36,215 bases of DNA. It comes from an uncultured Bacteroidota bacterium. GTDB taxonomy: Bacteria > Bacteroidota > Bacteroidia > Bacteroidales > P3. The notes below the pieces were generated by a model. It made no database searches. It was not told where the DNA came from and saw nothing but the letters and a program-made list of their open reading frames with translations. The stretch spans positions 1 through 36,215 of the forward strand of contig CADCEC010000017.1 of assembly GCA_902800395.1 (NCBI GenBank). The letters are read 5' to 3'. This document shows, in pieces, positions 6,016-34,341 of the stretch (positions are counted from its first letter, which is position 1; every line of letters starts with the position of its first letter). A program made the translations under genes and the position numbers.

Positions 6016-6093
6016 ATGACTACATCCAATCCTCATATGACCCTTCATAAGCTCTTCTTAAATATCAAGAAGAGAGACGTTTATTTTAGTTGA
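6016..6093 (+). CDS. Candidate small leader ORF, 25 codons
   Basis: ATG at 6016 opens a 25-codon frame rich in Lys, Leu and Phe, with FLNIKKRDVYFS at its C terminus. Its TGA (6091-6093) falls inside the first unit of the heptad repeat that follows. A good -7 box lies 11-18 bp upstream. It contains Tyr at position 23 but no Trp, so it is not an obvious TnaC-type tryptophan sensor, although tnaA begins 142 bp downstream. It could be a leader peptide, an independent small protein or chance. Support is positional only. Confidence 0.3.
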   Translation: MTTSNPHMTLHKLFLNIKKRDVYFS

Positions 6094-6120
6094 AAGTTGA
6101 AAGTTGAAAGTTGAAAGTTG
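6089..6120 (+). repeat. Perfect heptad tandem repeat (GTTGAAA x4.5)
   Basis: Four perfect GTTGAAA copies followed by GTTG. The tract starts at the end of the small ORF and belongs to the same 7-bp-period family seen at other gene junctions in this window. Confidence 0.95.
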
Positions 6121-7611: not shown

Positions 7612-8507
7612 AAACCACAGAGGCCATAGAACGGTTTCACACCTATATCGCCACCGAACGCCGCATGGCGGCCGGTACGGTGCGCAACTATATCGACGAT
7701 CTCGAGGACTTCGACGCCTGGCTCCGCAGTCAGGACATCGAGGTCCTCGATGACGTTACCGCCCGTGAGGTACGGGGGTGGCAGATGGAGCACATGGAGC
7801 GCGGCGAGAAGGCCGGCACCGTGAAGCGGCGCCTGTCGTCGCTGAGCAGCTTCTTCCGCTACCTGCGACGCCACGGCCTCTTCGAGGCCGACATCATGGC
7901 CAAAGTCTCAGCCCCCAAACAGCCCAAGCGACTGCCCGTCTTCTTCAAGGAGAAAGAGACCGAACACCTCTATGACGAGGGACTCTTCCCCGACACCTTC
8001 ATGGGGCAGCGTGACAAGCTCATGCTGCGCATGCTCTATGAGACCGGTATGCGGCGAAGCGAGCTCGCGGGACTCAAGACCGCCTCGGTGGACTTTTCTT
8101 CTTTAACCATCAAAGTACTGGGTAAGAGAAACAAAGAACGCCTCATCCCAATAGAAAATGAATTGGCACACAATATTAAAGAATATCTTGCGTTAAAGGA
8201 GCAGGAAAAGGGACCCAGCGAGTGGCTTTTCGTAGGGGCTCGGGGTCGTCAAATTACGCCACAGGACGTGTACCTGACAGTGAAGAAATACATGACGGCG
8301 CTCTCCGACGCCGACCGCATCAGCCCCCACGTCTTCCGCCACAGCTTCGCCACCCATATCCTGAACGAAGGGGGCAACATCGAGGCCATCAAAGAGCTGC
8401 TCGGCCACGCCGACCTCGCCACCACGGAGGTCTACACCCACGTGACCCGCGAGCACCTCAAAGAGGTCTACAAGCACGCCCACCCCCGTGGAAAAGTTAA
8501 GAGTTAA
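7608..8507 (+). CDS. xerC: Tyrosine recombinase, XerC/XerD family
   Basis: 299 aa, the usual Xer length. It resolves chromosome dimers by site-specific recombination at dif. The N-terminal SAM-like domain covers residues 1-90. The catalytic domain shows Arg149 (ETGMRRSEL), the beta-hairpin Lys in LGKRNKERLIP, HVFRHSF, LLGHADLATT and nucleophile Tyr276 in TEVYTHV. The only suitable start is TTG at 7608, overlapping the tnaA stop. The last codons (VKS and stop) are written by the heptad repeat that begins at 8496. A Xer gene followed by a hibernation factor is a common Bacteroidales arrangement and supports a core gene rather than an integrase. XerC and XerD cannot be separated from one copy, so the symbol is tentative. 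Confidence 0.9.
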   Translation: MKTTEAIERFHTYIATERRMAAGTVRNYIDDLEDFDAWLRSQDIEVLDDVTAREVRGWQMEHMERGEKAGTVKRRLSSLSSFFRYLRRHGLFEADIMAKVSAPKQPKRLPVFFKEKETEHLYDEGLFPDTFMGQRDKLMLRMLYETGMRRSELAGLKTASVDFSSLTIKVLGKRNKERLIPIENELAHNIKEYLALKEQEKGPSEWLFVGARGRQITPQDVYLTVKKYMTALSDADRISPHVFRHSFATHILNEGGNIEAIKELLGHADLATTEVYTHVTREHLKEVYKHAHPRGKVKS

Positions 8508-8530
8508 GAGTTAATAGATAATAGTTAATA
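8496..8530 (+). repeat. Degenerate heptad repeat (GTTAAGA/GTTAATA x5)
   Basis: Five 7-bp units in register: GTTAAGA, GTTAAGA, GTTAATA, GATAATA, GTTAATA. The TAA stop of the recombinase gene (8505-8507) lies inside the second unit, so the repeat encodes the end of the protein. Confidence 0.9.
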
Positions 8531-8569
8531 CCTAAAACCCACAAAAACCATTAGACCTATTAAAAAGCA

Positions 8570-8600
8570 TTAACCTTTAACCGTTAACCTTTAACCGTTA
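8570..8600 (-). repeat. Heptad repeat in opposite orientation (TTAACCT/TTAACCG x4.4)
   Basis: Plus strand reads TTAACCT, TTAACCG, TTAACCT, TTAACCG, TTA. Its complement is the GTTAAAG/GTTAACG-type unit seen at 11690. It lies 39 bp from the forward array at 8496, so the two could pair in the transcript between the recombinase gene and hpf. Confidence 0.9.
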
Positions 8601-8625
8601 CAAACAACTAACCCTATATATAAAG

Positions 8626-9928: not shown

Positions 9929-11680
9929 ATGGAAATCAATACCCTTAACATCGACGAGAGTGCCAAGCTGAATGCCCAGAGCTGGCTTGACGGCGCCTAT
10001 GACGAGGCCACCAAACAGGCCATCCGCGACATGGCCGAGAACAACCCCAACGAGCTCAATGAGAGCTTCTACCGTCATCTGGAGTTCGGCACCGGCGGTC
10101 TGCGCGGCATCATGGGCGTAGGCACCAACCGCATGAATAAATACACGGTGGCCATGGCCACCCAAGGGCTGGCCAACTACGTGAAGGGCCAGTTCGCCGG
10201 CGAGAAGGAGCTGCGCGCCGCCGTCAGCCACGACAGCCGCAACCACAGCCGCGAGTTCGCCGAAATTACGGCCAATGTACTGGCCGCCAACGGCTTCAAG
10301 GTATACCTCTTCGACGGCATGCGTCCTACCCCCGAGCTGAGCTTTGCCGTGCGCCATTTCCACTGCCACACCGGCGTGATGGTCACCGCCAGCCACAACC
10401 CCAAAGAGTACAACGGATACAAAGCCTACTGGAGCGACGGCTGCCAGCTGACGGCTCCCCACGACACCGCCGTCATTGACGAAGTACTGAAAATCAAGAG
10501 TGTCACCGACGTAAAGATGAGTGGTGGCGAGCAGAATATCACCATCATCGGGGAAGAGGTGGACCAGGTCTACCTCCGCAGGGTGGAGGCCAACAGCCTG
10601 AATCCCGAGCTCATCAAGAAGCACCACGATGTGAAGATTGTCTACACGCCGCTGCACGGCACCGGCATCACGCTCATCCCGCGCATGCTCAAGCAATTGG
10701 GATTCACCAACGTGAACATCGTGGAGGCCCAGGCGGTGCCCGACGGCAACTTCCCCACCACCCCCAGCCCCAACCCCGAGGAGAAAGCCGCCATGAAAAT
10801 GGCCGTGGAACTGGCACAGCAGATTGATGCCGACATCGTCTTCGCCAGCGACCCCGATGCCGACCGCGTGGGCGTGGCCGTGAAGCGTCCCGACGGCGAG
10901 TGGATGCTGCTCAACGGCAATCAGACCATGAGCGTCCTCATATATTATATTGTCAAGCAGTGGCAGGAGAAGAAGATGCTCACCGGCAACGAATTCATGG
11001 TGAAGACCATCGTTACCAGTGAGTTGCCTGCCGACATCGCCACTCGCGCTGGCATCAAGATTTACGATGTGCTGACAGGCTTCAAGTTCATCGGCGCCAA
11101 GATTCTGGAGCTCGAAGGCGTGGAACAATTCATTGCCGGTGGCGAGGAGAGCTACGGCTACATGATTGGCGACTTCGTGCGCGATAAGGACGCCGTGGCC
11201 GCTTGCTCGATGATTGCCGAAATTGCCGCATGGGCCCGCGAGAACGGCAAGACCTTCTTCGACGTGCTGGTGGACATCTACAAGGAGTACGGATTCTACA
11301 AGGAAGGCCTCGTCAGCGTGGTTCGCAAAGGCAAGAGCGGTGCCGAGGAGATACAGCAGATGATGAGGGACTACCGCAGCAACCCTCCCACCGAAATCGA
11401 TGGCGAGAAGGTGGTATGCATCAAGGACTACCAGACGCATGAGAGCAAGGACCTCATGAGCGGCAAGGTGACCCCCATCGACCTGCCGAAGAGCAACGTG
11501 CTGCAGTTCTTCACCGACAAGGGCAACAAAGTCACCGTGCGCCCCAGCGGCACCGAACCGAAAATCAAGTTCTACTTCGGTGTGAAGGGTGAACTCTGCT
11601 GCAAGGAGAACTTCGACAAGACCAACACCGCCCTCGACAGCAAGATTGAGAGCATCAAACACAGCATGAAGCTGGTGTAA
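9929..11680 (+). CDS. pgm: Phosphoglucomutase/phosphomannomutase (alpha-D-phosphohexomutase)
   Basis: 583 aa. It interconverts glucose-1-phosphate and glucose-6-phosphate (or the mannose equivalents), feeding glycolysis and envelope sugar synthesis. All family signatures are present: the phosphoserine loop TASHNPKEYNG (Ser155), metal-binding DPDADRVG, sugar-binding GGEESYGY and the phosphate-binding RPSGTEPKIKFYF near the C terminus. The length fits the long PgcA-like group found in Bacteroidota and Firmicutes. The ATG at 9929 is preceded by an A-rich leader; no clear -7 box was seen in the 200-bp spacer. The stop codon lies at the edge of the heptad repeat that leads into recR, 49 bp away, so the two are probably in one operon. 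Confidence 0.93.
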   Translation: MEINTLNIDESAKLNAQSWLDGAYDEATKQAIRDMAENNPNELNESFYRHLEFGTGGLRGIMGVGTNRMNKYTVAMATQGLANYVKGQFAGEKELRAAVSHDSRNHSREFAEITANVLAANGFKVYLFDGMRPTPELSFAVRHFHCHTGVMVTASHNPKEYNGYKAYWSDGCQLTAPHDTAVIDEVLKIKSVTDVKMSGGEQNITIIGEEVDQVYLRRVEANSLNPELIKKHHDVKIVYTPLHGTGITLIPRMLKQLGFTNVNIVEAQAVPDGNFPTTPSPNPEEKAAMKMAVELAQQIDADIVFASDPDADRVGVAVKRPDGEWMLLNGNQTMSVLIYYIVKQWQEKKMLTGNEFMVKTIVTSELPADIATRAGIKIYDVLTGFKFIGAKILELEGVEQFIAGGEESYGYMIGDFVRDKDAVAACSMIAEIAAWARENGKTFFDVLVDIYKEYGFYKEGLVSVVRKGKSGAEEIQQMMRDYRSNPPTEIDGEKVVCIKDYQTHESKDLMSGKVTPIDLPKSNVLQFFTDKGNKVTVRPSGTEPKIKFYFGVKGELCCKENFDKTNTALDSKIESIKHSMKLV

Positions 11681-11732
11681 CGGCGTAACGTTAAAGGTTA
11701 ATGGTTAAAGGTTAACGGTGTAAAGGTTAATG
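11675..11732 (+). repeat. Heptad repeat bridging the pgm stop and recR start
   Basis: Core units from 11690: GTTAAAG, GTTAATG, GTTAAAG, GTTAACG, GTGTAAAG (8 bp), GTTAATG. The last unit contains the recR ATG (11730-11732). The pgm stop lies in GTGTAACG at 11675, which resembles the 8-bp unit. Confidence 0.9.
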
Positions 11733-12344
11733 AACCTACCGAGTAGGATACTGGAGGAGGCCGTAGAGCAGTTGGCGAGCCTGCCTGGCGTGGGCAAGCG
11801 GTCGGCACTGCGCTACGCCCTCTTCCTTATGAATGAGGAGGAGAACAAGGTGCGCGACTTCAGCGAGGCTCTGCTGCGCCTGAAGACCCATCTGCACCAC
11901 TGCCGCTACTGCCACAACGTCAGCGATACCGAGGTATGCCCCATCTGTGCCAGCGAGAAGCGGCAGAAGGGAATTGTCTGCGTAGTGGAGAACATACAGG
12001 ACGTGATGGCCGTGGAGAACACCCAACAGTACCGCGGTCTCTACCATGTGCTTGGCGGTGTCATCTCTCCCATCGACGGCATCGGCGTCCACGACCTGGA
12101 GATAGCATCGCTCATCCGCCGTGTGGAGAGCGGTGACCCCGCACCCGTCGAGGAGGTCATCCTGGCACTCCCCACCACCATGGAGGGCGACACCACCAAC
12201 TACTATATCCATAAGCAGTTGCTACCTTACGGGGTGAAAGTCACCACCCTGGCCCGCGGTGTTGCCGTGGGCGACAGCTTAGAGTACGCCGACGAGATTA
12301 CCCTCGGCCGCAGCATCATGAACAGAATACCGTTTGAGAGTTAA
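11730..12344 (+). CDS. recR: Recombination protein RecR
   Basis: 204 aa, close to the usual 200. RecR works with RecO (and RecF) to load RecA on gapped DNA during recombinational repair. It has an N-terminal helix-hairpin-helix (LASLPGVGKRSALRYA), a four-Cys zinc finger (CRYCHN then CPICAS, residues about 58-75), a Toprim domain (GIVCVVENIQDVMAVE, YHVLGGVISPIDGIG) and the C-terminal Walker-B-like segment VTTLARGVAVG. The ATG is supplied by the last unit of the preceding heptad repeat and the TAA lies in the first unit of the next one. recA lies two genes downstream, a repair-flavoured neighbourhood. Confidence 0.95.
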   Translation: MNLPSRILEEAVEQLASLPGVGKRSALRYALFLMNEEENKVRDFSEALLRLKTHLHHCRYCHNVSDTEVCPICASEKRQKGIVCVVENIQDVMAVENTQQYRGLYHVLGGVISPIDGIGVHDLEIASLIRRVESGDPAPVEEVILALPTTMEGDTTNYYIHKQLLPYGVKVTTLARGVAVGDSLEYADEITLGRSIMNRIPFES

Positions 12345-12374
12345 TGGTTAATAGATAATAGTTAAGAGTTGAAG
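12340..12374 (+). repeat. Heptad repeat bridging the recR stop and the GH3 lipoprotein start
   Basis: Units GTTAATG, GTTAATA, GATAATA, GTTAAGA, GTTGAAG. The recR TAA (12342-12344) is in the first unit and the TTG start of the next gene (12369-12371) is in the last. Confidence 0.9.
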
Positions 12375-13514
12375 ACATTACTTTTTTTCGCAACACTGAT
12401 GGGGCTGCTGGCCTGTAACAATCGGAGCAACCAGAATATTCAGAGTACTCAGAACAATCAGAGTATTCAGAATAACCAGATTTCCCTCGACGAGGCCATC
12501 GGCGAGATGCTGCTGGTGGGCTTCCGCGGCACCGAGATTGACAACACCCACCACATTTGGCGCGACATCCGCGACTATCATGTGGGCAGCGTCATCCTCT
12601 TCGACTTCGATGCCCCCACGGGCACCCGTGGCCGCAATATCAAGAGTGCCGAGCAGGTAAAGTCCCTCTGCTCCCAGCTACACGAGCTCTCCCCCACCCT
12701 CCTTATCGGCATCGACCAGGAGGGCGGACGGGTGTCGAGGCTCAGCACCAAATACGGATTCCCCACCATCCTGTCGGCACAGAAGAGTGCCGAGAAAGGC
12801 CTCGACACTGTGCGCCATTATGCGCGCCTCACAGCCGAGATGCTCCATGAACTGGGCATCAACCTTAACTTCGCCCCCGTGGCCGATGTCAACGTCAATC
12901 CAGCCTGTCCCGTCATCGGCGGTATCCAGCGTTCTTTCTCGACCGACACCGACAGGGTGACCCAATGCTGCAAGATTTGGATTGACGAACAGCGGAAAGC
13001 GAGTGTGGCAAGTTGTCTGAAGCATTTCCCCGGCCACGGCAGTGCCAAAGGCGACACCCACAAGGGGCTCGTCGACGTCACCCAGACGTGGCAGCGTCGC
13101 GAACTAGCCCCTTACCGCGTCCTCTCCGACTGCGACATGGTGATGACAGCCCATGTCATCAACCGCCGCCTCGATCCCTCAGGCCTGCCGGCCTCCCTCT
13201 CGCCACGCATCACCTCGCTGCTGCGCGACAGCCTGCACTTCTCCGGAGTGATAGTCACCGACGACCTCGCCATGGGTGCCATTATCAACGAGTACTCCCT
13301 TGAGCAGACCCTCCGCATGGCTCTCGAGGCCGGAGCCGACCTCCTCTGTCTCAGCAACAACGGAAGCAACGGCTACGACCCCGACATCGTCCCCAAGGTG
13401 GTGAAAATTATCAAGAAACTTGTCGCCGATGGCACCGTCGACCCCAACCGCATCATCCTGTCTGCCCAACGCATTCGCAAACTGAAAGAAAGGCTCTCTA
13501 CCACAGTACGTTGA
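12369..13514 (+). CDS. Glycoside hydrolase family 3 lipoprotein, beta-N-acetylhexosaminidase-like
   Basis: 381 aa. A short lipoprotein signal (LLFFATLMGLLAC, lipobox Cys about residue 16) is followed by a 21-residue low-complexity linker of N/Q/S/I triplets, encoded by a 9-bp tandem repeat. The GH3 catalytic domain follows: IGEMLLVGFRG, LIGIDQEGGRVSRL, NLNFAPVADVN, the family signature CLKHFPGHGSAKGDTH with the catalytic Asp-His region, and the nucleophile segment VIVTDDLAMGAI. KHFPGHG with the following His is typical of NagZ-like N-acetylglucosaminidases that cut GlcNAc from peptidoglycan fragments. This version is membrane-anchored rather than cytosolic. It is a single-domain form, without the beta-lactamase domain some Bacteroidota homologues carry. 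The start is a TTG within the heptad repeat; no better start gives a signal peptide. Confidence 0.88.
   Translation: MKTLLFFATLMGLLACNNRSNQNIQSTQNNQSIQNNQISLDEAIGEMLLVGFRGTEIDNTHHIWRDIRDYHVGSVILFDFDAPTGTRGRNIKSAEQVKSLCSQLHELSPTLLIGIDQEGGRVSRLSTKYGFPTILSAQKSAEKGLDTVRHYARLTAEMLHELGINLNFAPVADVNVNPACPVIGGIQRSFSTDTDRVTQCCKIWIDEQRKASVASCLKHFPGHGSAKGDTHKGLVDVTQTWQRRELAPYRVLSDCDMVMTAHVINRRLDPSGLPASLSPRITSLLRDSLHFSGVIVTDDLAMGAIINEYSLEQTLRMALEAGADLLCLSNNGSNGYDPDIVPKVVKIIKKLVADGTVDPNRIILSAQRIRKLKERLSTTVR
12420..12482 (+). repeat. 9-bp tandem repeat encoding the lipoprotein linker (7 units)
   Basis: Seven in-register 9-bp units with consensus A-W-T-C-A-G-A-R-T (e.g. ATTCAGAGT, AATCAGAGT, ATTCAGAAT). They encode triplets NRS, NQN, IQS, TQN, NQS, IQN, NQI just after the lipobox. 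Confidence 0.9.
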
Positions 13515-13523
13515 CAAAAAAAC

Positions 13524-13554
13524 TTGGCGGTTTGAAAATAAATATGTATATTTG
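13524..13554 (+). promoter_or_regulatory. recA promoter
   Basis: TTG (13524-13526), a 20-bp spacer, then TATATTTG (13547-13554), which is the Bacteroidota housekeeping promoter layout. The start codon is 46 bp further on. No obvious LexA-type palindrome was seen between promoter and gene. Confidence 0.75.
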
Positions 13555-13600
13555 CATCTATTGAATAAAAATAATAAATTAAACTAAATATTTGATAATT

Positions 13601-18316: not shown

Positions 18317-18919
18317 TTATTTTTTCTTAGCAGCCACTTTCTTGGCGACAGCGACTTTCTTCGAGGCAACTTTCGTAGCCACAGCAGCTTTCTTAACGGC
18401 GGCAACTTTCTTCACAGCAGCAACCTTCGTGGCGACGGCTTTCTTCACAGCCTTCACCTTGGTGGGAGCAGCTTTCTTGGCCGGGGCTTTCTTTGCGGGG
18501 ACCTTCTTGGCTGCGGGTTTGGCGGCCGCTTTGTTGTAGCGCTGGCAATCCATGGGAGTCACACAGGTGCCGGTGGCACGGGCCACAAGAATACGCTCCT
18601 CGAGGACCTCGGCGGCACTGGCGCTAATCTCCGGCAGAGTGCGGATGACCTTGTAGGCCTCGAATTTCATCTTGCGGCTGGTGTTGCCCACGTGGGTAAT
18701 CTCACCGTAGGCCTCGATATAATCTCCAGCATAGACGGGAGCCTTGAACTCCACCATGTCGTAGGCACAGAAAAGACCTTCGTCGCCGTCCTGTTTGATT
18801 AAAAGTTCGGTAGCCACGTCACCGAAAAGGTGAACCATGTGAGCTCCATCAACGAGATTTCCGCCGTAGTGGGCGTCTTTAGCGCTCATGCGAACGCGAA
18901 GCATAGAGGTAACTGCCAT
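18317..18919 (-). CDS. kal: 3-aminobutyryl-CoA ammonia-lyase-like protein with a Lys/Ala-rich tail
   Basis: 200 aa from ATG 18919 (a TTG two codons upstream is less likely). Residues 1-129 form a hotdog-fold enzyme: [75 protein letters not shown]. These match the Kal family, which removes ammonia from L-3-aminobutyryl-CoA to give crotonyl-CoA in lysine fermentation. The adjacent atoD gene, also a step of that pathway, supports the call. Residues 130-200 are a tail of almost only Ala, Lys, Val and Pro (25 Lys in 71 residues), like histone H1 or AKP-rich bacterial tails. It is in frame, ends at a normal stop and is not part of the usual Kal. It could bind nucleic acid or acidic partners; that is a guess. 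Confidence 0.82.
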
Positions 18920-18925
18920 AATCAA

Positions 18926-18953
18926 TTGATAATTGAAAGATGAAAAATGAAAA
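18926..18953 (+). repeat. Heptad repeat between atoD and kal
   Basis: Plus strand units TTGATAA, TTGAAAG, ATGAAAA, ATGAAAA fill exactly the 28 bp before the atoD stop codon (TTA at 18954-18956). The genes run on the minus strand, so the purine-rich strand is antisense here. Confidence 0.85.
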
Positions 18954-19601
18954 TTATTTCTTGATGATAAAGTCCACGAAGATACCGGGAGTCTTCACGT
19001 TCTCAGGGGAGATAGAACCTGTTTTGACAATCTCCTGAGGCTCGACGATGACGGTGTCGGCGGCGGTGGCCATCATGGGACTGAAATTCTGCGAGGTGCC
19101 TTTGTAGACCAGGTTACCTTCCTCGTCGCTGATATTGGCACCAATGATGGCGACATCAGCGTGAACAGGCTTCTCCAGAAGGTACTCCTTGCCGTCGATG
19201 GTCACTTTCTGCTTGCCGTTTTCCACAACGGTACCGAGGCCCGTCTGAGTCAACACACCACCGAGGCCGGCACCAGCGGCACGAATCTGCTCAGCCAACG
19301 TGCCCTGCGGCTGCAGCGTCACCTTCAGCTCGCCAGCATTCATTTGGTCGATAGTATTGTTGTTGGTGCCAATATGAGTGGCGATGAGAGCTTTCACCTG
19401 ATGGTTGGTGATGAGCTTGCCAACACCTACCTCGGGATAGGCGGTATCATTGCAGATGATAGTCAAATCCTTGACACCACGGGCAACGAGTTCGTCGATG
19501 AGGGCGATGGGGTTACCCACACCCAAAAAACCTCCGACCATAACGGTCATGCCGTCGTGAATCTTGTCGGCGGCCTCTTTTACAGTGACAAATTTGTTCA
19601 T
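18954..19601 (-). CDS. atoD: Acetoacetate/butyrate CoA-transferase, subunit A
   Basis: 215 aa, the normal length of the alpha subunit of 3-oxoacid CoA-transferases. It transfers CoA between butyryl-CoA and acetoacetate, the closing step of lysine fermentation, together with a beta subunit (AtoA). Visible: [17 protein letters not shown], a glycine-rich CoA-binding turn, [35 protein letters not shown], and the C-terminal segment [13 protein letters not shown]. The catalytic Glu sits in the beta subunit, for which no gene is present in this window; the genes on either side are kal and a divergent unknown gene. A -7-like box (19647-19654) lies upstream. It is co-transcribed with kal across a 34-bp spacer made of heptads. 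Confidence 0.9.
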
Positions 19602-19646
19602 AATTTATACTATTTTGATACTTTTTGCGTTAATGATTTGAAAATG

Positions 19647-19654
19647 CAAAAATA
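19647..19654 (-). promoter_or_regulatory. Promoter -7 element for atoD-kal
   Basis: Minus strand TATTTTTG followed by C fits TAnnTTTG, 46 bp upstream of the atoD start. No TTTG is found at the -33 distance. Confidence 0.5.
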
Positions 19655-19682
19655 CTACTTTTTTCTCATTCTGAAAAAAAAA

Positions 19683-19714
19683 TTTGTACATGTGGCGAAA
19701 TATGAGTACTTTTG
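19683..19714 (+). promoter_or_regulatory. Promoter of the unknown secreted protein gene
   Basis: TTTG (19683-19686), exactly 20 bp, then TACTTTTG (19707-19714), a near-ideal Bacteroidota promoter. It faces away from the atoD promoter. Confidence 0.8.
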
Positions 19715-19741
19715 CAGTTTGAAAACTAATAGGATATGTAT

Positions 19742-26609: not shown

Positions 26610-26650
26610 AACCTATAATATAGGAGAGTGAAAGGGAGTGAAAAAGAAGT

Positions 26651-26686
26651 GAGAGGGAGTGAAAAGACAAATGCTCACTCCCTCTC
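26651..26686 (-). terminator. Intrinsic terminator after ppiD
   Basis: 12-bp perfect stem (GAGAGGGAGTGA / TCACTCCCTCTC) with a 12-nt loop. On the minus strand it is followed by ACTTCTTTTT. It lies 15 bp beyond the ppiD stop. The plus-strand flank 26624-26665 is a run of degenerate GGGAGTGAAAA-like repeats. Confidence 0.8.
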
Positions 26687-26701
26687 ATTCCATTATTCTG
26701 A

Positions 26702-29776: not shown

Positions 29777-31270
29777 ATGGAAAAGGAGCGCACATATATC
29801 GCCATCGACCTCAAGTCGTTCTACGCCTCGGTGGAGTGCGTCGAGCGGGGTCTCGACCCCCTGACCACCAACTTGGTAGTGGCCGACAAGAGCCGCACGG
29901 AGAAGACCATCTGTCTGGCGGTGACACCCTCGCTGAAACAATACGGCATCGGGGGACGCGCCCGTCTGTTCGAGGTGGTGCAACGTGTGCGACAGGTGAA
30001 CAACGAACGACGGAAAAAAGCCCCCTACTGGCAACTCACCGGCGAGTCGGCCGACGACAACGAACTGAAAGCCCACCCCGAACTGGCCGTCACCTACCAT
30101 GTGGCACCACCCCGCATGGCCTATTACATCGACTATAGCGCCCGCATTTTCAGCATCTACATGAAGTACATCGCCCCCGAGGACATCCACGTCTATTCGG
30201 TCGACGAAGTCTTCATGGATGTCACCAACTACCTGGGTACTTACAAGATAACCGCCCATGAGCTGGCGCGCCGCATGATTGGCCACGTGCTGCGCGAGAC
30301 GGGCATCACCGCCACCGCCGGCATCGGCCCCAACCTCTACCTCTGCAAGGTGGCTATGGATATCGTCGCCAAGCACATCCCTGCCGACAAGGACGGCGTG
30401 CGCATTGCTGAGCTTGACGAGATGTCGTACCGCCGGCAGCTGTGGAACCACCGCCCGCTCACCGATTTCTGGCGCGTGGGACGCGGTATCGCCCGCAAGC
30501 TCGAAGCCTGCGGCATGAGGACCATGGGCGACGTGGCACGCTGCTCGCTGACCCAAGAGGGTCTGCTCTACAAACTCTTCGGCGTCAACGCCGAACTGCT
30601 TATCGACCACGCCTGGGGCTGGGAACCCTGCACCATGAAAGCCATCAAGGCCTATCGCCCCAAGAGCAACTCCTTCAGCTCCGGACAGGTGCTCTCCGAG
30701 GCCTACCCCTTCGAAAAGGCACGCATCGTGATGCGCGAGATGGCCGACGCGATGGCCCTCAAGTTGGTGAGCCTCCGCATGGTGGCCCATCAGGTGGGCA
30801 TCTTCGTCAACTACGACACAAAAAGCTTGGAACAAGGACGTTACGGCGGCGAAATAGTGAGCGACTACTACGGCCGGCCGGCACCCAAGCCCGCCCACGG
30901 CGGAGCACTCCTCCCCCACCCCACCTCGTCGGCACGCCTCATCACCGAGGCGGCAATGGCGCTCTTCGACCAGAAAGTCGACCCTCGGTTGCTGGTCCGC
31001 CGACTCACCCTCACCGTAAACCAAGTGGTCGACGAGGAGAAGGTCTCCACCACTCCCTCCGAGCAACTCGACATGTTCACCGACTACGAGGCTGTGGCGC
31101 GTCAGCGCGAGGTCGAACAGTCGGCACTCGACAAAGAACGCCGCATGCAGGAGGCCGTACTCTCCATCAAGCGGAAATACAACAAAAACGCCATCCTCAA
31201 AGGCATGAACCTCGAAGAGGGCGCCACCGCCCGCGAACGCAACGCACAGATAGGAGGACACAAGGCGTAG
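29777..31270 (+). CDS. dinB: Y-family translesion DNA polymerase (UmuC/DinB-like)
   Basis: 497 aa from ATG 29777 (MEKERTYIAIDLKSFYASVE). A longer reading from 29753 covers the promoter and is rejected. It copies past DNA lesions with low fidelity. The catalytic residues are Asp11 in AIDLKSFYASVE and the DE pair in IHVYSVDEVFMDV. The thumb helix-hairpin-helix is near WRVGRGIARKLEACGMRTMGDVA, and the little-finger domain follows SNSFSSGQVL. A C-terminal extension holds QLDMFTDYEA, a beta-clamp-binding-like motif (about residues 432-441). This long form, paired with a small YolD-like gene, resembles the UvrX-type polymerases often found on mobile elements of Firmicutes and in gut Bacteroidota. 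The stop TAG ends on the first base of a heptad repeat leading to the partner gene. The symbol is given for the family. Confidence 0.88.
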   Translation: MEKERTYIAIDLKSFYASVECVERGLDPLTTNLVVADKSRTEKTICLAVTPSLKQYGIGGRARLFEVVQRVRQVNNERRKKAPYWQLTGESADDNELKAHPELAVTYHVAPPRMAYYIDYSARIFSIYMKYIAPEDIHVYSVDEVFMDVTNYLGTYKITAHELARRMIGHVLRETGITATAGIGPNLYLCKVAMDIVAKHIPADKDGVRIAELDEMSYRRQLWNHRPLTDFWRVGRGIARKLEACGMRTMGDVARCSLTQEGLLYKLFGVNAELLIDHAWGWEPCTMKAIKAYRPKSNSFSSGQVLSEAYPFEKARIVMREMADAMALKLVSLRMVAHQVGIFVNYDTKSLEQGRYGGEIVSDYYGRPAPKPAHGGALLPHPTSSARLITEAAMALFDQKVDPRLLVRRLTLTVNQVVDEEKVSTTPSEQLDMFTDYEAVARQREVEQSALDKERRMQEAVLSIKRKYNKNAILKGMNLEEGATARERNAQIGGHKA

Positions 31271-31304
31271 TTAAGAGTTTAGAGTTTAGAGATAAAAGTT
31301 ATGA
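31270..31304 (+). repeat. Heptad repeat bridging the polymerase stop and the YolD-like start
   Basis: Units GTTAAGA, GTTTAGA, GTTTAGA, GATAAAA, GTTATGA. The first G is the last base of the polymerase TAG stop. The last unit contains the next gene's ATG (31301-31303). Confidence 0.9.
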
Positions 31305-31525
31305 GTGACTATGAGGATATAATCAATCTGCCGCACCATGTGTCGACGCACTATCCCCGCATGAGCATGGAGGGACGCGCCGGCCAGTTCTCCCCTTTCG
31401 CCGCCCTCACTGGCCTCGGAGCCGCCATCCGCCGCGCCGCCGACCACCCCGACGAGCAGGTCTACTTCGACGACGAAATGATGCAATCTCTTTACAACGA
31501 ACCTCTTGACGATGATGAAGATTAA
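31301..31525 (+). CDS. YolD-like small protein paired with the Y-family polymerase
   Basis: 74 aa, acidic, cytoplasmic. The core NLPHHVSTHYPRMSMEGRAG, QFSPFAALTGLGAAI is the signature of YolD-like partners that follow UvrX/DinB-type polymerase genes. They are thought to be accessory factors of the polymerase, analogous in position to UmuD, although the exact role is not settled. The C terminus is acidic (EPLDDDED). The start codon is embedded in a heptad repeat and the gene is certainly co-transcribed with the polymerase. dus follows 9 bp later. Confidence 0.85.
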   Translation: MSDYEDIINLPHHVSTHYPRMSMEGRAGQFSPFAALTGLGAAIRRAADHPDEQVYFDDEMMQSLYNEPLDDDED

Positions 31526-31534
31526 AAGAAAACC

Positions 31535-32512
31535 ATGAACCTTTCCACTTTCCACTTTCCACTTTCCACTTTCGCCATCGGCCTCTCCCCCATGGACGAC
31601 ATCACCGACCTCCCCTTCCGCCAGCTCTGCAAGGAGTTCGGCGCCGATCTGCTCATCACCGAGTTCATCGCCTCCGAAGCCCTCAACCGCGACGCCGAGA
31701 AGAGTTTCCGCAAGATGCGCTTCTCCCCCGAACAGCGCCCCATTGGCATACAGATATTTGGGGCTGACGAGGATGAACTCCTGCGCTGCCTCGAGGTAGT
31801 GGAGCAGGCGGAGCCCGACTTCATCGACATCAACTGGGGCTGCCCCGTGCGCAAGGTGGCTGGGAAAGGTGCCGGCTCGGGAATCCTGCAGGACATCCCT
31901 AAGATGCTTAGAATCACCGCCGCGCTGGTCAAACGGGCCCACCTGCCGGTAACCGTGAAAACCCGCCTCGGCTACAGCCATGATTCCATGATGATTACCG
32001 ACTTCTGCGAAGCCCTCCAGGACACCGGCATCGCCGCCCTCAGCATCCACGGACGTACGAAGACCCAAATGTATAGCGGCACCGCCGACTGGACGATGAT
32101 TGGGGCCGTGAAGAACAACCCCCGTATGCACATCCCTATCTTCGGCAACGGCGACATCACCACGGCGGCGCAAGCCGTCGAGGCCCACCGCCGTTACGCC
32201 GTCGATGGCATCCTCATCGGCCGCGGAGCCATCGGCAACCCTTGGATATTTGAGCAGTGCCAACGGGCTTTCCGCGGCGAGTCCGAACGGGAAATCACCG
32301 TCGCTGAACGCGTGGAGGTCTGCCGCCGTCACCTCCTCGCCGCCGCCACCTTTAAAGGCGAGCGTACCGCTGTCTTCGAGATGCGCAAACACTATGGCGC
32401 TTATTTCAAGGGACTTTTCAACTTCAAGCCCTTCCGCCTCGCCCTCGTCAGCACCCCCACCCTCGACGAAACCCTCGCCGTCCTCGACCGCATCGAAGAA
32501 CACTACCGGTAG
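31535..32512 (+). CDS. dus: tRNA-dihydrouridine synthase
   Basis: 325 aa. It reduces uridines in tRNA D-loops with FMN. Visible are SPMDDITDLPFRQLCKEFGADLLITEF, PIGIQIFGADED, the catalytic Cys103 in DINWGCPVRKV, GAGSGI, VTVKTRLGYS, IHGRTKTQMYSG, PIFGNGDI and GILIGRGAIGNPWIF, and the C-terminal helical domain MRKHYGAYFKG. Which uridine it modifies (DusB-like or other) is not decided. Residues 3-13 (LSTFHFPLSTF) are written by a 7-bp tandem repeat and take the place of the usual short start before the first beta strand. The only ATG that keeps the strand SPMDDITD is the one at 31535. Confidence 0.9.
   Translation: MNLSTFHFPLSTFAIGLSPMDDITDLPFRQLCKEFGADLLITEFIASEALNRDAEKSFRKMRFSPEQRPIGIQIFGADEDELLRCLEVVEQAEPDFIDINWGCPVRKVAGKGAGSGILQDIPKMLRITAALVKRAHLPVTVKTRLGYSHDSMMITDFCEALQDTGIAALSIHGRTKTQMYSGTADWTMIGAVKNNPRMHIPIFGNGDITTAAQAVEAHRRYAVDGILIGRGAIGNPWIFEQCQRAFRGESEREITVAERVEVCRRHLLAAATFKGERTAVFEMRKHYGAYFKGLFNFKPFRLALVSTPTLDETLAVLDRIEEHYR
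31541..31573 (-). repeat. Heptad repeat inside the start of dus (CTTTCCA x4.7)
   Basis: Four CTTTCCA units and a partial CTTTC. The complement is the GTGGAAA-type unit. Read in frame it gives LSTFHFPLSTF. Confidence 0.95.
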
Positions 32513-33007: not shown

Positions 33008-33042
33008 ATGTGTTAATGTCTGATTGCTTGAATGTTTGAGTT
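33008..33042 (+). repeat. Degenerate heptad-like spacer before lysC
   Basis: Between the smpB stop and the lysC ATG the spacer reads roughly TAATGTC, TGATTGC, TTGAATG, TTTGAGT, TATGAAA in 7-bp steps. It is weaker than the other tracts. Confidence 0.45.
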
Positions 33043-34341
33043 ATGAAAGTATTTAAATTTGGAGGGGCCTCTGTCAATAGCGCCGATGCCGTGCGCAACA
33101 TGGCGCAGATAGTGAAAAATCATTTGGAATCAGAGACCCTGGTGGTCGTCGTCTCCGCCATGGGCAAAACCACCAACCTTCTCGAAAAGTTAGTCCCCTG
33201 CGACAATGGAGCGCCGGCATCCTGCCGGCAGGAGCTGCGCCAGCAACTCGAAGACTACCACCTCGACATCGCCAAGTCGCTGATTCCAAACGACGAAACC
33301 CTTGTCACCAAAGTCCTCGACCTCCTCCACCAACTCGACACCACCATCCATTCACTTTCCTCTTTCCACTTTCCTCTTTCCACTCAATACAACTACTGTT
33401 ACGACCAAGTGGTCTCTTTCGGCGAACTCATCTCCACCACCATCATCGCCCACTACCTCAACCACCTTGGTATCAATACCCTGTGGCTGGACGCCCGTCA
33501 ACTTATCCGCACCGATGACCACTTCCGCGAAGGCCGCGTCGACTGGCAAGCCACCCAAGAGGCAATTGATAAGTGGAGAGCAGAAAGCGGAAAGTGGAAA
33601 GACAATAATATTATCCTGACTCAGGGTTTTATCGGCGGCACTAACTCTACACTTTCCACTACCACCCTCGGCCGAGAGGGTTCCGACTATTCTGCCGCCA
33701 TCCTCGCCTACTGCCTCGACGCCGAGAGCGTCACCATCTGGAAAGATGTGCCGGGCTTCCTCAATGCCGACCCCAAATTCTTCGCAGACACAGTCAAAAT
33801 CTCCCAGATACCCTACAACGAAGCCATCGAGCTGGCCTACTACGGCGCCTCCGTCATCCATCCCAAGACGGTGAAACCCATTCAGAACAAAGGCATTCCG
33901 CTCTATATCCGCTCCTTCATCACCCCCGAAGCCGAAGGCTCCTCCGTCGGCGACTATAAGACTATCGTCCCCGAGACCCCTCTCTACATCTTCGCCAACA
34001 ACCAGATACTCCTCTCCATCCTGCCGCGCGACTACTCCTTCATCGCCGAGGACAACCTGCAGGTCATCTTCGGCATCCTCAACGAGCTTGGAATCAGGGT
34101 CAACCTCATGCAGAACTCCGCCCTGAGCTTCTCCATCTGCATCAACAACAACCCACAGCTGGTGAAGCCCCTCGTCGAGCGTCTACAGCACATGTTCCGT
34201 GTGCGTTACAACGAGAACCTGCAGCTCATCACCATCCGCTACTACACCCAGGAGGTCATCGACAGCATCGTCGCCGGCCGGCCCATCCTCCTCGAGCAGC
34301 GCTCCCGTACCACCGAGCAACTCATCGTCCCCTGCCAGTAG
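33043..34341 (+). CDS. lysC: Aspartokinase (monofunctional, lysine-sensitive type)
   Basis: 432 aa. It phosphorylates aspartate, the entry to lysine, threonine and methionine synthesis. The kinase domain has KFGGASVNSADAVRNM (residues 4-19), VVVVSAMGKTTNLLEKL, SFGELIS, TQGFIGG, TLGREGSDYSAAILAYCLDAESVTIWKDVPG, NADPKF and YYGASVIHPKTVKPIQN. The C terminus holds two ACT-like domains (FGILNELGIRVNLMQNSALSFSICI), implying feedback control. Three segments look repeat-derived: NGAPASCRQE (about 55-64) from a REP-like hairpin, HSLSSFHFPLSTQ (about 103-115) from an antisense heptad array, and KWRAESGKWK (about 176-185) from a sense heptad array. All keep frame. The length is within the normal range, so they replaced loops rather than simply adding sequence. 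No kinase motif is interrupted. Confidence 0.9.
   Translation: MKVFKFGGASVNSADAVRNMAQIVKNHLESETLVVVVSAMGKTTNLLEKLVPCDNGAPASCRQELRQQLEDYHLDIAKSLIPNDETLVTKVLDLLHQLDTTIHSLSSFHFPLSTQYNYCYDQVVSFGELISTTIIAHYLNHLGINTLWLDARQLIRTDDHFREGRVDWQATQEAIDKWRAESGKWKDNNIILTQGFIGGTNSTLSTTTLGREGSDYSAAILAYCLDAESVTIWKDVPGFLNADPKFFADTVKISQIPYNEAIELAYYGASVIHPKTVKPIQNKGIPLYIRSFITPEAEGSSVGDYKTIVPETPLYIFANNQILLSILPRDYSFIAEDNLQVIFGILNELGIRVNLMQNSALSFSICINNNPQLVKPLVERLQHMFRVRYNENLQLITIRYYTQEVIDSIVAGRPILLEQRSRTTEQLIVPCQ
33205..33235 (+). repeat. REP-like GC hairpin inside lysC
   Basis: AATGG, then GCCGGCA (33213-33219), loop TCC and TGCCGGC (33223-33229). It shares AATGGNNCGCNGGCANCC with 17613-17643. It encodes NGAPASCRQ in frame. 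Confidence 0.6.
33353..33385 (-). repeat. Heptad repeat inside lysC (antisense array)
   Basis: CACTTTC, CTCTTTC, CACTTTC, CTCTTTC, CACTC. The complement is GTGGAAA/GAGGAAA. Encodes SLSSFHFPLST. Confidence 0.9.
33573..33601 (+). repeat. Heptad repeat inside lysC (sense array)
   Basis: GTGGAGA, GCAGAAA, GCGGAAA, GTGGAAA, G. Encodes KWRAESGKWK. A single further unit-like CTTTCCA occurs at about 33652-33658. Confidence 0.85.

Follow-up and report, generated by a model that had tools for sequence, protein, structure and literature searches.

Heptamer arrays in bacterial genomes are usually viewed as spacer curiosities or as regulatory sites, and such repeats are in themselves a known kind; the short tandemly repeated repetitive (STRR) sequences of filamentous cyanobacteria, for example, are degenerate heptanucleotide tandem arrays scattered through spacers. 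We analyzed a 36,215-nucleotide stretch (the window; contig CADCEC010000017.1 of assembly GCA_902800395.1) from an uncultured rumen member of the Bacteroidales, whose degenerate 7-bp arrays had been read in an initial annotation as repeats that join the stop of one gene to the start of the next. Comparison with the rest of the genome (G000) and with congeners (G-numbers, genomes; L-numbers, compared loci; C4, C9 and C2, contigs of the genome itself) leads to a different conclusion: the window repeats are the visible edge of a genome-wide repeat process that rewrites gene ends and the loops of housekeeping proteins, and not a purpose-built junction signal.

None of the literature matches listed describes this Bacteroidales system, the nearest being PMC4679880, PMC4692102 and PMC4596501; an excerpt of a further paper, PMC4060949, makes no mention of heptamers in Bacteroidetes. 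In the excerpted text of MacGregor 2015 (PMC4679880), TAACTGA heptamers form direct repeats in Beggiatoaceae, cyanobacteria and five Bacteroidetes, and the arrays of Cyanothece PCC 8801 and 8802 differ by indels that are mostly 7-nt steps. The Bacteroidales arrays resemble these in being 7-bp tandem arrays mostly in spacers, some of them over upstream stops, with stops in three frames and lineage-specific positions. Because the same excerpt reports arrays near starts and over stops, a few of them in Bacteroidetes including Paludibacter, the initial statement that no described Bacteroidales counterpart building start and stop codons was known goes too far. The TAACTGA repeats, however, have one fixed unit and lie mostly immediately upstream of starts, whereas the Bacteroidales arrays have many degenerate units, favor stops over starts and often lie within reading frames. 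No exact match to the TAACTGA dimer (TAACTGATAACTGA) was present in 436 kb of the genome itself plus 2.09 Mb of congener loci (L101-L260), and with 2 mismatches allowed the window gave one match against 0.16 expected.

The GGGNATC and GGGGAYT heptamers of Xanthomonas and Nostoc, of which 89-93% lie in spacers in two Xanthomonas (Rehm 2015, PMC4692102, in excerpt), are likewise degenerate, often within 50 bp of a stop, and widely variable in length and sequence between relatives. They are, however, G-rich and quadruplex-forming, with about 90% of positions common to two species, whereas the Bacteroidales arrays are AT- or purine-rich and show high turnover in the comparisons made; neither type is found among the common units listed, rarer units lying outside that listing. 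As reported in the excerpts of both papers, Mrazek (2007) put the preference for 7 in long repeat units down to the contact length of the polymerase, with slippage as the proposed origin. To such heptanucleotide long simple sequence repeats the Bacteroidales arrays add degeneracy, a genome-specific preference and coding occupancy. The minisatellite miniature inverted-repeat transposable element (MITE) BrickBuilt of Porphyromonas gingivalis, also of the Bacteroidales, combines a tandem array with inverted ends (Klein 2015, PMC4596501, excerpt), but it has a 23-nt unit, a fixed leader and tail, and an always intergenic position, whereas the arrays here have units of 7-10 nt and only a small minority adjoin a core.

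A 436-kb sample of the genome, 72.6 kb of it spacer, was scanned for lag-7 tracts with ten dinucleotide shuffles as control; it comprised the window, positions 1-360000 of C4 and 20 kb from either of C9 and C2. Spacer counts include 15-bp margins. Because genes came from a simple codon-usage caller, their starts are placed only approximately, an error shared by every count made close to a start. The spacers contain 56 lag-7 tracts, compared with a mean of 0.0 in the shuffles, and called genes hold 30 more of the same score. This excess, overwhelming across the genome, bears out the view of the initial annotation that the repeats are more than random AT-rich spacer. Other lags are rarer (14 tracts at lag 11, 7 each at lags 8 and 22). 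Across the whole 2.41-Mb genome, GTTAANNGTTAANNGTTAA is matched 121 times (overlaps counted) and its reverse 50 times, a weak control as the reverse is itself a heptamer motif. Of the traits general to heptameric repeats, both period 7 beyond chance and unit change in steps of 7 (one clean case) are present.

The arrays favor gene ends, and stops far more than starts. Counting overlap or a distance of at most 6 nt as contact, 22 of 41 tracts in the co-directional spacers of the sample touch a stop, 7 a start and 5 both; with six congeners added the figures are 81, 28 and 15 of 185, so the majority directly upstream of starts that marks TAACTGA repeats is not seen. Among 153 tracts in co-directional spacers with at least 30 bp free, 58 fall in the first tenth of the spacer and 19 in the last, where about 15 each would be expected from even placing (overlaps counted). 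Near a stop (≤12 nt), 75 of 91 tracts carry at least 0.8 stop triplets per unit on the sense strand, as do 46 of 94 elsewhere. Within the sample, 34 of 248 co-directional spacers hold a tract, as do 3 of 26 divergent and 2 of 29 convergent ones. Stop contact is over-represented, and start contact is close to what even placing would give. Such a pattern would arise if a stop-bearing array, on reaching the end of a gene, furnished its new stop; constraint near starts may contribute. Double contact, a point in favor of the junction reading, is commoner in 46 mostly Prevotella-type genomes (L055-L100), where 11 of 18 tracts touch a stop, 5 a start and 5 both. As a general account, a junction-specific signal, or a repeat built to join stop and start, is set aside given this near-even start contact and the 33 of 101 tracts (score ≥11) that lie in called genes.

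Stop triplets set the tracts within genes apart from the others: in 32 of the 33, every sense-strand phase is free of them (the exception is C4:140378), whereas 61 of the 68 outside called genes have a stop triplet on at least one strand. Their hosts, named by Pfam matches, include MurB (two tracts), an MnmE protein, a Mur-ligase-type protein (two tracts; C4:31480-32877, at one point taken for a glycogen synthase), a glycosyltransferase and a peptidyl-prolyl isomerase (PPIase). A further host has zinc ribbon, KaiC/AAA and ChlI domains, from which we call it RadA-like. Reading through the arrays, GTGGAAA gives VESGKWK and CTTTCCA gives LSTFHFP. In the window, two stop-free 7-bp arrays on the + strand had escaped the initial annotation, namely CTTTCCA at 31541..31573, which encodes residues 3-13 (LSTFHFPLSTF) of the tRNA-dihydrouridine synthase (Dus) open reading frame (ORF), and CTTTCCT/CTTTCCA at 33355..33381, which encodes LSSFHFPLS inside an amino-acid-kinase-family gene (33043-34341); both family names come from Pfam.

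Congeners permit a site-by-site comparison. The linker of the RadA-like protein, two loops of MurB, the N-terminus of Dus and what are probably signal peptides carry different arrays in different congeners, and for MurB, the RadA-like protein and Dus the arrays of different species are unrelated. The RadA-like linker is 32-37 residues long in 21 of 22 loci (the match in L192 is clipped by the search pattern) and is built of (GTGGAAA)n in G000 and, by eye, of CACTCAGA-type 8-mers in G002 and CAAGCAAT 8-mers in G014. MurB loop 2 keeps its length with CTTTCAC-type units in G000, G002 and G022 and ATTCTCA-type units in G015, and the loop at C4:314018 is 42 bp whether of the GTGGAAA type or, in sisters, of the GTTCGGA type. 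By eye, the Dus N-terminus has CTTTCCA (7 bp) in G000 and CACTCCCTCT (10 bp) in both G036 and G002, whereas that of G015 is simply MELKLPEKEC. The N-terminus of the PPIase at C4:344884, a probable signal peptide, was likewise read as MKKILLATAIFSIFNFQFTISHAQ in G000 and, at the corresponding position, as LLSPFTFHLSPCHAQ in G002, the two versions being encoded by separate arrays. Among G000, G036 and G002, 75 of 82 directed comparisons give a coding length difference divisible by three; some sites recur among these comparisons, so that not all are independent. Separately, the match to the RadA-like gene splits at query residues 137-147 with the frame open in G007, G012, G019 and G023, which suggests in-frame insertions there, at another site than the linker.

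We then compared the window junctions with those of sisters. At those compared, most sisters have no array, or one of another unit or period, and several array-less junctions overlap as ATGA. The 7-bp array at 12340..12370 (+ strand) runs from the recR stop (12342-12344, within the first unit) to TTG 12369 (within the last), which the lipoprotein signal sequences of sisters point to as the start of a GH3-domain lipoprotein gene, in agreement with the initial annotation. Besides the window, four of the 19 sisters (L021, L022, L024 and L025) have an array at this junction, with two kinds of unit among them (GTTAATA/GATAATA and ATTGAAA); by eye, the start is TTG in these five genomes and an ATG overlapping or touching the stop in the 15 sisters lacking an array. 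Before recR, a TAANGGT array at 11678..11732 (+) connects the stop of a phosphoglucomutase/phosphomannomutase gene (11678-11680) with the recR ATG (11730); the scan delimits it to 11690-11719, and it reaches 11732 with indels allowed. The 7-bp register, called strict initially, is broken here: as read from the sequence, the TAA spacing at 11678-11730 slips by one base several times, near both ends, and Tandem Repeats Finder gives 3-5% indels. At this junction L023 also has a 7-bp array, L021 a 10-bp one and L022 an 8-bp one (by eye, not flagged by the scan), nine sisters have only a few bases, and the other seven are rearranged or were not found. An AGTTTAG array at 31269..31291 (+) extends from the stop TAG (31268-31270) of a Y-family DNA polymerase gene towards ATG 31301, the two codons flanking the tract; by eye, the same junction in G022 is an ATGA overlap. 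The exact fit of the arrays at 11690, 12340 and 31270 follows from the fact that array-less junctions overlap or are a few bases apart, so that an array born there must span from stop to start.

Other junctions fit less exactly. The AATTGAT/AATTGAA array at 18924..18953 (- strand) lies between a CoA-transferase stop (18954) and a thioesterase-domain gene and was said to fill a 28-bp spacer, a figure that depends on TTG 18925 as the start. That assumed start is probably wrong, as ATG 18904 is conserved in 7 of 7 comparable sisters, and the spacer would then measure 49 bp. The array AGTTAAG/AGTTAAT/AGATAAT at 8495..8530 (+) encodes the three C-terminal residues of a tyrosine recombinase together with the stop of its gene (8507), and the AGTTGAA array (4.7 copies) at 6088..6120 (+), in a divergent spacer, contacts neither neighbor (280 and 114 bp to the called genes). 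Measured between anchors, the spacer at 8507 is 159 bp in the window, 56-78 bp in nine array-less sisters and 188 bp in L021, which has a 10-bp array; the spacer at 18926 is 54 bp as opposed to 27-37 bp in seven sisters, and a further array-bearing window spacer is 75 bp as opposed to 27-35 bp in array-less ones. Array-less junctions are thus shorter by about the array length, and the array-free control spacer at 19601-19736 varies little (149-155 bp in seven sisters, 150 bp in the window). Since most sisters lack the arrays, gain rather than loss is the more plausible direction. At several junctions the sequences of close strains are unrelated, an outcome that the initial annotation itself had named as refuting its junction reading.

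These junctions also bear on whether arrays before starts act as a translational or post-transcriptional signal, binding a protein or keeping the leader unstructured in place of a Shine-Dalgarno sequence, as MacGregor proposed for the TAACTGA repeats of Beggiatoaceae. That published parallel (PMC4679880, in excerpt), the stops that the units provide in three frames, the double contacts of the Prevotella-type set and the little-structured leader at 11675-11735, which does not fold above shuffles (z -0.29), speak for such a signal. We nevertheless hold it to be very improbable, given the low share of start contacts across the genus, the arrays in coding frames, the 15 recR-lipoprotein junctions and nine short forms before recR that have no array, and the TTG found by eye in array-bearing genomes where others have ATG. 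We infer only that individual arrays may affect translation.

The account that we favor, and consider on balance probable, is that arrays mainly of 7-8 bp arise in place by slippage, turn over fast and are retained where tolerated. Continuing tandem duplication, most likely by replication slippage with a register of about 7 nucleotides, would generate degenerate arrays of period 7 (also 8, 10 and 11), whose units would afterwards be lost, gained or replaced. Arrays could be born anywhere, selection deciding on retention and removing those that break frames or starts, with near-neutrality presumably holding at most sites. Units with TAA, TGA or TAG, which put stops in all three frames within 21 bp, would persist beyond reading frames or at the extreme end of one, the stop codon then being taken over by the array; stop-free units (GTGGAAA, CTTTCCA, ATTTTCA) would persist within frames, in linkers, loops, signal peptides and N-termini, provided that the net length change is divisible by three. 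Birth on an ATGA overlap would give an array that spans stop to start, separates the genes and may swap ATG for TTG.

Several observations are consistent with this scheme. At C4:230743, where the flanks are 99-100% identical, the length difference between G036 and G000 is exactly one 7-bp unit, the one clean case of its kind. Of 64 period-7 tracts of G000, 35 have an orthologous site in G036, with the same unit in 10, another unit in 8 and no tract in 17. The unit of an array also resembles its own orthologous array-less site more than other such sites, both in spacers (5.63 versus 5.26 of 7 letters, 0/200) and in coding sequence (5.51 versus 5.27, 2/200). Local birth predicts this likeness, and we count it in favor of birth in place. 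Other findings weigh against slippage in place. The array-free spacer at 13514-13592 varies in length (82, 252 and 647 bp in three sisters, 99-101 bp in 4 more), several coding sites have been rewritten with no net length change, the likeness to array-less sites is small and could stem from decayed arrays, and plain slippage predicts neither the recurrence of the same units at unrelated loci nor inverted array pairs around a hairpin core.

The recurrence of units was quantified across 22 sampled genomes of the genus. Units at different loci are identical in 5.8% of comparisons within and 2.2% between genomes, and in 0.63% and 0.36% when their letters are shuffled. At equal composition, period-7 pairs are identical in 328 of 665 cases within a genome and in 782 of 2767 between congeners (0/1000 label shuffles), and 8-mers in 55 of 85 and 60 of 159 (8/1000); for 10-mers (12 of 18 and 11 of 22) the excess is not significant (218/1000). 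These tests therefore indicate a genus-wide preference for certain, mostly purine-rich units together with a moderate genome-specific one; a strong "dialect" claim, made with composition uncontrolled, was dropped, and so was that of one freely variable position per unit (0.57, only mildly above the 0.43 of random units). Flanks are similar in 181 pairs of tracts, and in the 20 inspected the shared sequence was largely neighboring or other arrays.

Such within-genome identity at periods 7 and 8 would be expected if arrays were copied in trans, templating one another by ectopic conversion or by template switching at microhomology, or being the arms of dispersed hairpin elements, so that the unit of a genome spreads and replaces others in place. 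The loop at C4:314018, of equal length and with another unit in sisters, also fits, as does the excess of strictly matching neighbor pairs that are inverted (18, versus 8 direct, 7 of these 8 in three clusters of one 20-kb stretch). With loose matching this excess weakens to 51 versus 39, and the identity excess does not reach significance at period 10. Of 596 tracts, 39 have a core of the GCTGMCGC/GCGTCAGC/GACAAATG type 3' of their purine-rich side and 16 have one 5' of it, against a background of 1.0% of random 30-mers. The pattern was, however, picked after examples had been seen, the two arms of one element may be counted twice, and more than 90% of tracts have no core; the strict core pattern has 3 sites in G000, and the conserved core or inverted ends that mark most copies of MITE- or repetitive extragenic palindromic (REP)-like elements are thus absent from most tracts. 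We regard copying in trans, the main rival to slippage in place, as doubtful, with a small but real chance of being correct. Rather unlikely, too, is the specific proposal that a trans-acting process writes the preferred unit of a genome into tolerant sites, housekeeping loops, linkers, N-termini and signal peptides included, replacing older units and being partly seeded by small hairpins with inverted-array arms; if it were true, each species would have its own changing repeat dialect.

A machinery search among 37 genomes singled out no cause. Loss of mismatch repair was rejected, MutS being present in 37 of 37. Slippage loops of this length are too long for mismatch repair, and its presence is compatible with slippage. 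A Y-family polymerase was matched in 33 of 37, including G016, which showed no array over 60 kb, and was unmatched in array-rich G007 (79% complete). For telomerase-like templating by a reverse transcriptase, RVT_1 was matched in 14 of 37 genomes and, in a search confined to this family, had no match in array-rich G002, G023 and G028 (93-98% complete). A REP-type transposase fares no better, Y1_Tnp occurring in 28 of 37 genomes, G003 and G005 among them, although 40 kb of sequence from these showed no array. The transposase and reverse transcriptase distributions also weigh against copying in trans.

Some inverted pairs might instead be bidirectional terminators or protectors of mRNA 3' ends, a role that would also account for anchoring at stop codons. 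The purine-rich arm comes first in 42 of 51 inverted pairs, and two folds are strong, that at C4:270840-270930 (-42.6 kcal/mol, z -7.75) and that of a window hairpin overlooked initially, at about 26626..26690, where a 10-bp GAGTGAAAGG array, a GACAAATG core and an inverted array come in succession (minus-strand RNA, -25.9 kcal/mol, z -4.6, folded as 26620-26695). By eye, the G036 spacer orthologous to C4:270847 has another inverted-array stretch of different sequence. We consider this explanation improbable: only a minority of tracts form inverted pairs, one such pair is inside a called gene (C4:175511), the arrays at 11690 and 12340 are single and lie between co-directional genes a few dozen bases apart, and convergent spacers are not enriched. 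Two other folds in the window are weak, namely 8490-8605 (z -2.13), where the 8495..8530 array is the first arm of a weak inverted pair with TTAACCT/TTAACCG at 8570..8600 (- strand), and 12335-12375 (-3.4 kcal/mol, z -2.55). The hairpin subset could be terminators or remnants of small elements. Similar 10-mers with the GACAAATG core turn up again in G000, G036 and G002, and a hairpin of 35-38 bp with perfect ends GGCTGACGCA...TGCGTCAGCC occurs five times in G025 (C6:2026, C11:12887, C11:13069, C127:4738 and C172:11493), perhaps as a small dispersed element of its own.

Array density in the genus is highest in G002, at 31.5 per 100 kb, and 0 in G003, G005, G013, G016 and G020, with 7-60 kb covered in each of these five. 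For the region around recR, the values per 100 kb are 5.7 in the 19 sisters, 2.1 in L040-L054 and 5.2 in L055-L100, where 18 of 46 loci have at least one 7-bp array, and the process is therefore patchy and not confined to the genus. Outside the genus, 7-bp arrays with other units were seen in L063, L071, L098 and L084, the last being Prevotella bivia DSM 20514. An artefact of assembly or sequencing might be suspected because the closest named relatives of the bacterium are metagenome-assembled genomes, but the arrays leave reading frames intact, separate assemblies show them again between near-identical flanks, and the P. bivia DSM 20514 record carries three of them, so we find this explanation scarcely credible. 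Through such congeners the birth rate of arrays, the reason why period 7 wins and the share of repeat mutation in the evolution of loops, signal peptides and operon junctions of gut Bacteroidales can be tested. Start codons and spacer motifs beside such arrays are easily misread and call for caution.

Of the tracts first listed for the window, both Tandem Repeats Finder and the lag-7 scan recover the seven clear ones (6089, 8496, 8570, 11690, 12340, 18926 and 31270) and neither detects the weak one at 33008. The ORF at 31301-31525, 3' of the Y-family polymerase gene and initially called YolD-like, has no Pfam match at 1e-3. Repeats of other periods also occur. A separate 11-bp class counts 14 in the spacers of the sample (among them C4:134603, C4:240063, C4:293788 and C4:334533), some seemingly as inverted pairs. 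In the window, a 9/18-bp coding repeat at 12417-12480 encodes an N/Q-rich stretch directly after the lipobox of the GH3 lipoprotein and differs among sisters, and the thioesterase-fold gene (4HBT; 18317-18904, - strand) has tandem repeats of 15, 18 and 33 bp at 18336-18533, in its C-terminal end.

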